The position numbers were made by a program, and so were the translations under genes. This document shows, in pieces, positions 10,419 through 38,679 of a DNA stretch of 64,000 bases. The notes under the pieces are model-generated. The model ran no database searches, was not told where the DNA came from, and was given only the letters and a program-made list of their open reading frames with translations. Position 1 is the stretch's first letter. Every line of letters begins with the position of its first letter. The stretch lies in NCBI GenBank assembly GCA_001898485.1, contig MKTY01000027.1:62001-126000 (forward strand), written 5' to 3'. Source of the DNA: Sphingobacteriales bacterium 46-32. GTDB lineage: Bacteria; Bacteroidota; Bacteroidia; Chitinophagales; Chitinophagaceae.

Positions 10419-10952
10419 TCAGGCGAGGCGAGCCAGTATTTTACGCCCGCGCGAACGGAATGCTGCTGACTCCTGGTCCCAACGTTCTTCTATTATACGG
10501 CGCAATTCACCGGCAATGTCGGGATACTGCCTGCTCATGCGCTCGAGTATGGTCAGTGAAAAAGCTTTTACCGCAGCTTTTTCCTGCGGGTCACAGATAT
10601 AATCAAAACAGTAGTTCATGAGTTTGCCCTGCAGGCGAACAGGCACATCTATATCCTGCAGCAATCGCACAGCATTGCGTCTGACAGCCGGGGGCATATC
10701 ATCTTTTTCCATTTGGCGGATGAGGGCCGTAAGATGTGGCCTGATCAGTTGCGGATGTTGCTGCACCGCATAACTTAACGGCCAGGCAGATCGTTGTATC
10801 ACCCGCTCCGTACCGGTCATAAACAGGTTGAATAATTCATTAAACCTTTGCTGCGAGTTTCCCACCCATTGTACAATCTTCATACAATTGGCACGGGAGT
10901 GTTCTTTTTCTATCTGGTCGATCAGTTTCATGCTCATTGAAAATATCTGCAA
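10419..10952 (-). CDS. HEAT-like helical repeat protein of unknown function
   Basis: 177 residues, all helical, with HEAT-like units (HLTALIRQMEKDD, PAVRRNAVRLLQDID, KAAVKAFSLTILERM). No signal peptide or membrane segment. Met7 (MKLIDQIEKEH) is an alternative start. I do not recognise a specific family; such proteins are usually scaffolds. Confidence 0.6.
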   Translation of the reverse strand: MQIFSMSMKLIDQIEKEHSRANCMKIVQWVGNSQQRFNELFNLFMTGTERVIQRSAWPLSYAVQQHPQLIRPHLTALIRQMEKDDMPPAVRRNAVRLLQDIDVPVRLQGKLMNYCFDYICDPQEKAAVKAFSLTILERMSRQYPDIAGELRRIIEERWDQESAAFRSRGRKILARLA

Positions 10953-13116: not shown

Positions 13117-14238
13117 TTAATGCTCTGGTTGAATCTGCACCGTCTGTCCGTTGCGGATTTCTTCAGAAGCTTTTTTTATCAGTGTGTCCTGTGGCGTCAC
13201 TGCTCCCGTTATTTCGGTACGCTCACCATTGCTGGTGCCGGTGGCAATGGGTACCCATTCTGCTTTGCCATCTTTTACACGGATCACGAATACGCCCAGC
13301 GTTGAATTGAGAATGGCAGTGCCGGGGACATTGACAGTACCTGCACCACTTTGCAAGGGCAGCACGATTTCAGCAACCATGCCAGGCAGTAATTTTTTAT
13401 CATTATTCACTACATCCATTTCCACACGTTGCGAACGCAGTCGATTGTCGAGCGCACCTGCTGCTCTGGCAATGCGGGCAGTAAATGTATCGCCGGGTAG
13501 GGATTGAACGGTAAATCTCACTTCCCCGTTTCTGTCCAGGCTACCGGTATAGGATTCGGGCACACTCACCACCAGCCGCAGTTTCTTTTGCTCTACCAGC
13601 GTGAAGATGGGCTGCTCAGATCCTTTTCCTGTTGGTCCCACATAGGCGCCGGCACTTACGTTCCTCGCAGAAATGATGCCACTGAAGGGAGCCCGTATCT
13701 GCAGATAATTACGGGTATCTGTCACTTCGCGATAGGTAGCACGTGCAGCTTCCAGTTGTGCCAGATCCGATTGCTGGCGCGCATTGGCCAGTTCCAGATC
13801 ATTGGGCGAAATGGTACCCGGCGTTTTGCTGGTTTGCAACAGGCGGTCATAAGTTGCTTTACTGGCTATATATAATGCTTCCTGCGATTTGAGTCGTGAC
13901 GCAGCTGCATTTTGTTGGGCATTTAACTCCGGCGCTTCCAGTGTAGCCAGCAGCTGACCGGCCTGTACTTCACTGCCTACATCTGCATACAACCTGCTCA
14001 CAAAGCTGCTTACCTTGGCATACAAATCTACCTGCTGCCAGGCCTGCACTTCACCCGGTATGCGCACGGTGGCCGAAAGTTTTCCTTCCTGTGGCAGAAT
14101 AGCCGGGATACCAGCAGGAGCAGCTGTAGTCTTTTTTATATTTTTTTCCGTTGCCTCTGATTCATCACAGGCTGTGAGCGCTGCAGCTACTGCTGCCAGC
14201 ATTAGTACATAAAACGTATAAGTTGAGAAACGGTTCAT
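13117..14238 (-). CDS. RND efflux periplasmic adaptor (membrane fusion) lipoprotein
   Basis: 373 residues. An SPII signal (ALTAC near residue 24) predicts a lipid-anchored periplasmic adaptor. The two biotinyl-lipoyl halves (QQVDLYAKVSSFVSRLYADVG and YLQIRAPFSGIISARNV) bracket a helical hairpin of about 80 residues, and a beta-barrel and membrane-proximal domain follow. It would bridge the RND pump (14250-17552) and the TolC-like channel (17587-18975). The 11-bp spacing from the pump gene shows an operon. Confidence 0.93.
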   Translation of the reverse strand: MNRFSTYTFYVLMLAAVAAALTACDESEATEKNIKKTTAAPAGIPAILPQEGKLSATVRIPGEVQAWQQVDLYAKVSSFVSRLYADVGSEVQAGQLLATLEAPELNAQQNAAASRLKSQEALYIASKATYDRLLQTSKTPGTISPNDLELANARQQSDLAQLEAARATYREVTDTRNYLQIRAPFSGIISARNVSAGAYVGPTGKGSEQPIFTLVEQKKLRLVVSVPESYTGSLDRNGEVRFTVQSLPGDTFTARIARAAGALDNRLRSQRVEMDVVNNDKKLLPGMVAEIVLPLQSGAGTVNVPGTAILNSTLGVFVIRVKDGKAEWVPIATGTSNGERTEITGAVTPQDTLIKKASEEIRNGQTVQIQPEH

Positions 14239-21316: not shown

Positions 21317-21400
21317 CGGAGGGAATTTTGAGGGAAAGTTGAAGGAAGTTATAGGTATTAAGTGAAAGGTAGAAGGTATATGGTGTAAGGTATAAGATTT

Positions 21401-21702
21401 GTAGGCCCGCCATGCCTGGCGGGCCTACAAGGTGAAAGGTTGGTGGGAGAAGGTGGAAGAAGGCATAATGATTTGTAGGCCCGCCATGCCTGGCGGGCCT
21501 ACAAGGTGAAAGGTTGATGGGAGAAGGTGGAAGAAGGCATAATGATTTGTAGGCCCGCCATGCCTGGCGGGCCTACAAGGTGAAAGGTTGATGGGAGAAG
21601 GTGGAAGAAGGTATAATGATTTGCCGGCCCGCCATGCCCGGCGGGCCTACAAGGTGAAAGGTTGATGGGAGAAGGTGGAAGAAGGCATAATGATTTGCCG
21701 GC
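21401..21702. repeat. 74-bp tandem repeat, four full copies plus a partial, each with a long palindrome
   Basis: Repeat units begin at 21401, 21475, 21549 and 21623, with a fifth truncated start at 21697; the spacing is exactly 74 bp. Each full unit carries a 14-bp inverted repeat around GTAGGCCCGCC with a 4-nt loop, followed by a purine-rich stretch of the AAGGTGAAAGGT type. The fourth copy has changed both palindrome arms in part (TTGCCGGCCCGCC), the first three are nearly identical. The array fills the 417-bp gap between the DUF4199 gene and the response regulator. Confidence 0.95.
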
Positions 21703-37251: not shown

Positions 37252-38679
37252 ATGAGTACGTATCTTCTGCTCCGCAACAACAAGGAAAGCGGTCCGCACA
37301 CGCTGCAGGCCCTGCTTACCATGGGCCTCCGGCCATATGACCTCGTCTGGGTGGAAGGGCGAAGTGCCGCCTGGCGTTACCCTTCCGAAGTAGAGGAACT
37401 AAAACCTTATGCCCAGGCCGTAGAGGAACAGCCATTCGACCGCTTTTATAAAAAATCACTGGTCGGTGTCCACACTTCGTCATCACTGGTCGGTGTTCAC
37501 ACCGACCAGCAGGTTGATCAAAACGAAAACAACGAAAAATCGAAACGGCTGGTCGATGTTTATACCGACCCGCATCAAAAATATATGCCGCCTCCGGCCA
37601 GCAAGGCTGCAGACCCGGCTGTCCGAAAGTCTGTTTTTGTGACCATGCCGGGTAAAGCGGCGACTACCTCCCGCCCCGCCCCCCAACCCGTCACGCCCCC
37701 TCCCGTGATGCAGGTACGTGAAGCAGAACCAGTAGAGGCAGAGATCAAATACAGCCAATCTCTCGACGATATCAAGGATATGTATGTGCAGACACTGCAG
37801 GACCGCAAGAAAAAGCTGGTCCGCCGCTCGCAATGGCGCAGTTACCTTCGTACAGCTGCTGTTATTGCCAGCCTGATTGGTGTGGGCGTTCTGGTAGGAT
37901 TTATGGTCCGCCCCCGTGCAGCACAGTCGCCGGTACTTTCAGAAAACAGGAATCCTGCAGGTAAAGCTGCTGTTGCTGAGCCTGGCTCGTCGTCACCGGT
38001 AAAACAGGAGGTGGTGGCAGATGATGTGCAGTTGCAGAATGACCCCATGCCTGCTCCGGAAAAGTTCAAAGATGCCCCTCTTGTGAATGTAAGCACCGAA
38101 TCGAGGTTGCTGACACGTGACCAGACGGCAGCCAGTTTTTCGTTGCAGCATAAAACACCCGAATACAAAAAAAATAATACATCCTCCGGCATACAACCGG
38201 CAGCTCCCGAAGCGGCAACCTATCCGGTATCTAAAACAGCAGAATATCAGTCCGCCACCCAGGATCCGCATACAGGACAAAGAGGTAAGGCAGTACGCAC
38301 TGGCGATACACCGGTTACAGAACAGCCTGCAGCCAATCCGGGTACCATCACCCGCAACCCATCAACCACCGATGCACTTGCCAGTCAGGTGACGGTACGC
38401 AGCAACGATTATAAACGGGTAGCCTTTGGTGGTATTCGTGATCTGAGGCTTACTGTGACCAATAACAGCAATTTTGAACTCGACCAGGTATTGGTAGAAT
38501 TACAATACATCAAACCCAGTGAAGAACCCTTACGCACAGAGCAAATTAAGTTTGGTGCCATAGCCGCCAATGAATCTTCCACCATACGCATACCCGATAC
38601 AAACCGGGGCATTAAAGTGACCTATCGTATTATCAGGATCAATAGCAAACAGGCGCAGGACGCGCTGGCAGGAAGATGA
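37252..38679 (+). CDS. GYF_2-like domain protein with one TM helix and C-terminal beta domain
   Basis: 475 residues. The N-terminal 50 residues look like a GYF_2/DUF4339-type domain (YLLLRNNKESGPHTLQALL, VWVEGRSAAWRYPSE). A low-complexity linker carries three copies of a palindrome-coded peptide (LVGVHTS, LVGVHTDQ, LVDVYTDP). A single TM helix follows (about 203-221, TAAVIASLIGVGVLVGFMV), then a Pro/Ser/Gln-rich stretch and a C-terminal beta domain of about 100 residues (IRDLRLTVTNNSNFELDQVLV). Membrane-spanning; function unknown. Confidence 0.72.
   Translation: MSTYLLLRNNKESGPHTLQALLTMGLRPYDLVWVEGRSAAWRYPSEVEELKPYAQAVEEQPFDRFYKKSLVGVHTSSSLVGVHTDQQVDQNENNEKSKRLVDVYTDPHQKYMPPPASKAADPAVRKSVFVTMPGKAATTSRPAPQPVTPPPVMQVREAEPVEAEIKYSQSLDDIKDMYVQTLQDRKKKLVRRSQWRSYLRTAAVIASLIGVGVLVGFMVRPRAAQSPVLSENRNPAGKAAVAEPGSSSPVKQEVVADDVQLQNDPMPAPEKFKDAPLVNVSTESRLLTRDQTAASFSLQHKTPEYKKNNTSSGIQPAAPEAATYPVSKTAEYQSATQDPHTGQRGKAVRTGDTPVTEQPAANPGTITRNPSTTDALASQVTVRSNDYKRVAFGGIRDLRLTVTNNSNFELDQVLVELQYIKPSEEPLRTEQIKFGAIAANESSTIRIPDTNRGIKVTYRIIRINSKQAQDALAGR
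37459..37570 (+). repeat. three copies of a palindromic element inside a coding sequence
   Basis: The core copy at 37486-37509 is a perfect 11-bp inverted repeat (CTGGTCGGTGT) with a 2-nt loop. Diverged copies lie at 37459-37474 and 37549-37570. All stay in frame and code for L-V-x-V-x-T peptides in the linker. Confidence 0.85.

Follow-up and report, generated by a model that had tools for sequence, protein, structure and literature searches.

An in-frame palindrome, probably a REP-type repeat, in the linker of a GYF-like protein from a Chitinophagaceae bacterium

From our analysis of a 64,000-nucleotide stretch of DNA (hereafter the window), we propose that a segment in the linker of a 475-residue protein is a REP-type palindromic repeat, consisting of a half-unit and a full palindrome, which was inserted in frame at a tolerant position and was probably mobilized by a RAYT protein. 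We consider this explanation likely. The RAYT encoded beside one sister copy of the palindrome, or a relative, would cut and join the hairpin as single-stranded DNA, and its action would place the unit in the linker. The unit may then have persisted because the linker evolves fast and the 24-bp form with a 2-nt loop contains no stop codon in the forward frames. The case connects an in-frame palindrome from a protein of Bacteroidota with a dispersed repeat family and a candidate enzyme of the same genome, is accompanied by presence and absence states in a congener, and would show how REP-type repeats can lengthen a linker by a short peptide.

Palindromic units in the linker of the host protein

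The protein is encoded on the forward strand at positions 37252-38679 of the window. Homologues are present in 69 of 147 Chitinophagaceae genomes; therefore, this ORF is a real gene. The original prediction had described a GYF-like protein of 475 residues. The length stands, but the putative GYF assignment is weak, as PF14237 (GYF_2) matches residues 6-50 with an E value of 0.0031 and 17.7 bits, below the curated cut-off of 25.8. This region is followed by a long variable linker and a C-terminal part, and residues ~203-222 appear hydrophobic by eye.

Three palindromic units lie at 37455-37572, the number that had been predicted, but only one of them is complete and perfect. A composite unit (37455-37509, forward strand) comprises a half-unit, a spacer and a full palindrome. 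The left half-unit, CTGGTCGGTGTCCACAC (37459-37475, forward strand), codes for LVGVHT, and the full palindrome, CTGGTCGGTGTTCACACCGACCAG (37486-37509, forward strand), is perfect over 24 bp, with 11-bp arms and a 2-nt loop, and codes for LVGVHTDQ. A third copy (37549-37572, forward strand), which codes for LVDVYTDP, is decayed and imperfect, with 20 of its 24 bases the same as in the full palindrome, and suggests the trace of an older event close by. The half, full and third copies are all in the reading frame of the ORF, and the translation around them, ...KKSLVGVHTSSSLVGVHTDQ...KRLVDVYTDP..., bears out the LVGVHT-type peptides that had been read in the linker. The peptide encoded by the palindromic insert, LVGVHTSSSLVGVHTDQ, most likely has no function of its own.

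A chance origin of these palindromes was ruled out by two comparisons. The core GGTCGGTGTNNACACCGACC, allowing up to three mismatches, matched twice in the window against 0.01 expected matches, and none of 100 shuffles reached two. Moreover, 5000 codon shuffles of the linker never produced a perfect palindrome whose arms were ≥11 bp and whose loop was ≤2 nt.

The orthologue in the congener G001 is identical at 199 of the first 204 bases, after which the linker diverges. Its linker has neither the half nor the full copy, and a stretch aligned to the third copy has 16 of 24 bases in common with it. The two sequences provide no clean empty site; the surrounding linker has diverged, with a net length difference of 30 nt. 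The orthologue set consists of 30 loci listed, the window's included, from the 69 matching genomes (L041 and L045 are partial sequences), and the LVGVHT-type peptide is absent from the 28 more distant loci among these listed matches. Orthologues without the half and full copies, as the original prediction had envisaged, thus exist, and the repeats are neither fixed in all orthologues nor absent from every other locus.

Perfect palindromes of other sequence occur in the same linker elsewhere. With a strict definition (perfect arms of at least 10 bp and a loop of at most 4 nt), 3 of the 30 orthologue linkers carry one, namely those of the window, L026 of G040 and L033 of G119, a post hoc count in which the window is the discovery case. 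In 500 codon-shuffled linker sets, the mean number of palindrome-bearing linkers was 0.056 and the maximum was 1. For comparison, 13 of 2057 pieces of 450 nt from long ORFs contained a strict palindrome, and the three linker genes are possibly among these 13. The palindromes of the two other linkers (L218 14460-14481 in G040 and L215 6685-6705 in G119) are unrelated to that of the window; the three have different sequences, come from three genera and start 37-66 nt into the linker. In the congener, the linker holds a decayed palindrome. Sampling 391 kb of G119 and 222 kb of G040 gave no second copy of the palindromes of L033 and L026, respectively, which argues against a REP identity there. 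A looser definition added a fourth linker, L031, whose imperfect palindrome overlaps a conserved VFVS stretch and fails the strict definition. We doubt that palindromes have repeatedly landed or arisen in the linker just behind the GYF domain. If they had, the GYF-like gene would document in nature how palindromes enter a protein, whether by insertion or through hairpin-driven copying. Separately, the L022 linker contains a repeat-like peptide, FAKASAD, whose DNA pattern occurs twice in the loci examined.

Dispersed copies and their layout

The expectation that the same palindrome would recur in the genome was confirmed, as seven further palindromes were found at five other places, giving eight with that of the window. 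Two lie on contig C24. The copy C24a (C24:239947-239988) is a sister with one stem base pair changed, and C24b (C24:240100-240127), from the whole-genome search, contains a 24-mer (C24:240102-240125) in which 23 of 24 bases are the same as in the full palindrome of the window, the difference being a loop base. Contigs C7 and C19, both first indicated by side matches of a DNA search, carry two palindromes each (C7a, C7b, C19a and C19b), and contig C17 carries one, with 13-bp arms and one mismatch. The lengths, 24 bp in the window and 21-42 bp elsewhere, are those of short palindromes, as in REPs. At the C24 locus, the congener lacks exactly the 113 bp that carry a half and a full unit, and the flanks abut; this difference may be a gain here or a loss in the congener, and the match in G002 does not span the site.

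These counts come from ~805 kb of the 5.49-Mb genome that was scanned for palindromes, and from the whole genome by narrow patterns only. Twenty stretches taken from contig starts (341 kb) contained one copy, which suggests a low copy number, and the other 20 stretches (400 kb) were in part picked to contain known copies. A whole-genome pattern with two mismatches recovers three of the eight palindromes because loop and stem vary, and patterns requiring GTGTNNACAC miss the members on C7, C19 and C17.

By ORF layout, all seven other palindromes are intergenic (judged on stop-to-stop ORFs; at some copies, short ORFs that overlap or run antisense were counted as spurious), and that of the window is the sole coding copy found. 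C24a lies 6 nt, C24b 10 nt and the C17 copy 8 nt from a neighbouring stop codon, the right half of C19a lies 5 nt from one, and C7a overlaps one; C7b and C19b do not adjoin a stop codon. In the congener G001, a copy on C194 is 12 nt from a stop codon. The family is thus dispersed, mostly extragenic and often near gene 3′ ends, and the six sites by stop codons fit REPs as described in the excerpted text of PMC3733652. The original prediction of a protein-invading repeat family found no support, with one coding copy among the eight found in the scanned ~805 kb and by the narrow whole-genome patterns. A Rickettsia-like family of this kind would account for the in-frame position in a linker, and the 24-bp, 2-nt-loop forms are free of stops in all three forward frames, but the intergenic position of the seven other palindromes speaks against it, as does a TGA in one frame of each of the four odd-length 23-bp forms that were translated. 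We therefore regard it as very improbable.

The copies share a layout. In an alignment (A2) of the composite unit of the window with C24a, C19a and C7a, a half-unit is followed by a spacer ending in ATC and a full palindrome, with 23 invariant columns. Loci in G001 have the mirror layout, a full palindrome and then right halves. Both species have a palindrome behind pckA, but its stem is GGTCGGTG in the window's genome and GGTTTGTG in G001; it stands single in the former, and in G001 (L116 1214-1290) the full palindrome is followed by three tandem right halves of ~17 nt. As a side observation, the two C19 copies (L130 ~10900-10950 and 13270-13316) have similar stretches of ~40 bp before them, which would suit the movement of a copy along with some of its flanking sequence.

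These comparisons bear on the possibility of a local origin, in which slippage or template switching at a hairpin, with no mobile element involved, would have duplicated the decayed palindrome of the ancestral linker (the third copy) on the spot and made it perfect. Such an origin would suit the decayed counterpart of the third copy in the congener, the half-units next to full palindromes, which resemble slippage products, and the two other orthologues whose unrelated linker palindromes were not refound. Nevertheless, the full copy agrees at 23 of 24 bases with an intergenic copy of a different contig and at only 20 of 24 with the third copy beside it, and three further loci have the same half-plus-full layout, ATC lead included. 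Therefore, we hold a local origin to be rather unlikely and favor the insertion of a REP-type repeat.

In an alignment of nine sequences (A1), 7 of 13 stem pairs have changed on both sides, and none of 500 shuffles had as many; pairing in itself is not evidence here because the sequences were selected as palindromes. Judging from this alignment, the family evolves as a stem, with compensated changes. Compensation in the stem, the copies elsewhere that adjoin stop codons and the folding of the palindrome segment, which is more stable than that of shuffles (z -3.2), would also suit a hairpin that is retained because it acts as a signal in RNA or DNA (a terminator, an mRNA stability element or a protein-binding site) and is coding only incidentally. 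We consider this improbable. The palindrome of the window is internal to an ORF, no T-run accompanies it, and terminator prediction called no site there; an Rfam search with the palindrome segment gave no match; and the half and full copies are missing in the orthologues examined. Its identity as a terminator or a known RNA family was left unsupported by these searches.

RAYT genes and other hairpins

RAYT/TnpA_REP proteins are small HUH single-strand nucleases. The copy on C17, which turned up in a stretch picked independently of it, is separated by 61 nt from the start of a downstream RAYT ORF (200 aa, L197 982-1584). The genome thus has a palindrome next to one of its own RAYT genes, the arrangement that characterizes a REPtron, though on one flank only. 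The candidate RAYT scores 68.8 bits against NF047646, below the cut-off of 80, contains the motifs THLH, WQ and YIHQNP, and weakly resembles a TnpA_REP of known structure (4er8, E 0.02). Two other Chitinophagaceae genera (G124 and G382) have related RAYTs flanked by palindromes with the same core. In G124, a RAYT ORF (L117, 93.5 bits) stands between inverted GGTCGGTG-N4-CACCGACC palindromes, and in G382, inverted palindromes of this type lie on both sides of a RAYT ORF (L090, 48.3 bits) whose frame is interrupted by a stop. Additionally, pieces of RAYTs lie beside GGTCGGTG-N4-CACCGACC palindromes at L086 and L095.

Our palindrome survey of 394 genomes yielded 24 palindromes, spread over 10 of them and including three from the window's genome. 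Five of the 21 others have a RAYT ORF or a piece of one beside them, and 16 have no RAYT ORF in the flanks examined. Other palindromes surround the RAYTs of L168, L169 and L170, including a GGTC-containing one at L168. PF01797 matched in 25 of a chosen set of 28 genomes (13 that belong to the genus or bear a palindrome, and 15 others), with and without the palindrome, so its presence alone is non-discriminating; Y1 transposases are present in palindrome-free genomes too. In the window's genome, PF01797 matched one gene, on C13, with a broken frame and other hairpins around it. The model misses the C17 RAYT and the L117 type, and these counts are not a census of RAYTs. The best reading of the family, from sequence comparison, is that of Chitinophagaceae palindromes that would accompany RAYT/TnpA_REP proteins. 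The palindrome and the C17 RAYT form a concrete pair that can be tested in vitro.

Several other hairpins were seen along the way. A 74-bp tandem array at 21399-21650 of the window has the 32-bp hairpin TTGTAGGCCCGCCATGCCTGGCGGGCCTACAA in three identical copies, plus a diverged fourth unit; sisters lie on C19 (L130 8173) and C24 (L139 12569). These hairpins, which start with GTAG, may be a second repeat family, of GTAG type. Hairpin repeats of the types ATGCTTCGTTTGCAACGAAGCAT and TATGCTTAGC...GCTAAGCATA recur on small contigs (L188 on C13, L181 on C5, L178, L192, L195 and L196), and some of them adjoin the frame-broken RAYT-like gene on C13.

An exact-pattern scan of a species collection returned 37 stretches, many from Actinobacteria, which we take to be unrelated hairpins. 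Six records were from Bacteroidota: Pedobacter, Daejeonella, Gynurincola, KLAP121 and two Chitinophagaceae MAGs. The Gynurincola match is terminator-like, with a T-run. In KLAP121, a Bacteroidota MAG, the same 20-bp core occurs twice, 1.3 kb apart (L072 3792 and 5136), each time with ~60 bp of similar right flank that seems able to form a second hairpin. As regards a phage origin, an 18-base pattern matched one viral contig.

Comparison with known systems

According to excerpts of PMC3733652, REPs are palindromes of 20-40 bp that lie mostly behind genes. In several species, some are found inside genes and in frame, where dimers or groups encode 20-30 aa, and linkers are suggested there as neutral sites for such intragenic REPs. 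CGTC repeats occur in Bacteroidetes among other phyla in the same excerpts. The palindrome of the window is similar to these intragenic GTAG/CGTC REPs in its size and its in-frame position in a linker, whereas its family differs in the apparently low copy number and the half-plus-full layout. Moreover, a GT[AG]G or CGTC tag, by which the GTAG/CGTC superfamily is recognized, was seen at the palindrome foot of none of the copies inspected by eye, and we do not assign the family to that superfamily.

The likeness to Rickettsia palindromic elements noted in the original prediction is justified in part. RPE-4, RPE-6 and the longer RPE-1, compared here by their published descriptions in part, are likewise palindromes in frame in proteins, and the excerpts of PMC3733652 assign RPE-4 and RPE-6 to the CGTC REPs. 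In contrast, every other copy found in the window's genome is intergenic, and that genome also encodes a RAYT partner, an arrangement that fits a REP/RAYT system.

The excerpted part of PMC6006769 reports that TnpA_REP proteins cut and rejoin REP hairpins, and describes a RAYT subclass 2.6 (Bertels group 5) from Bacteroidetes with the motifs NH[LIV]H, WQ and YIH[QN]NP and with atypical palindromes that lack GT[AG]G. As far as that part describes the subclass, the C17 RAYT shares WQ, YIH[QN]NP and the Bacteroidetes host, and the palindromes here, which occur next to the RAYT gene as well as at other genomic sites, also lack GT[AG]G. It differs in having THLH in place of NH[LIV]H and a palindrome on one flank only; the protein was compared with the subclass by motifs.

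A search of the open-licence literature found no published coding case from Bacteroidota, which is weak evidence. As the excerpts of these two papers already describe REPs within genes and RAYTs of Bacteroidetes whose palindromes are atypical, we regard the in-frame palindrome of the window as a new example of an established type.
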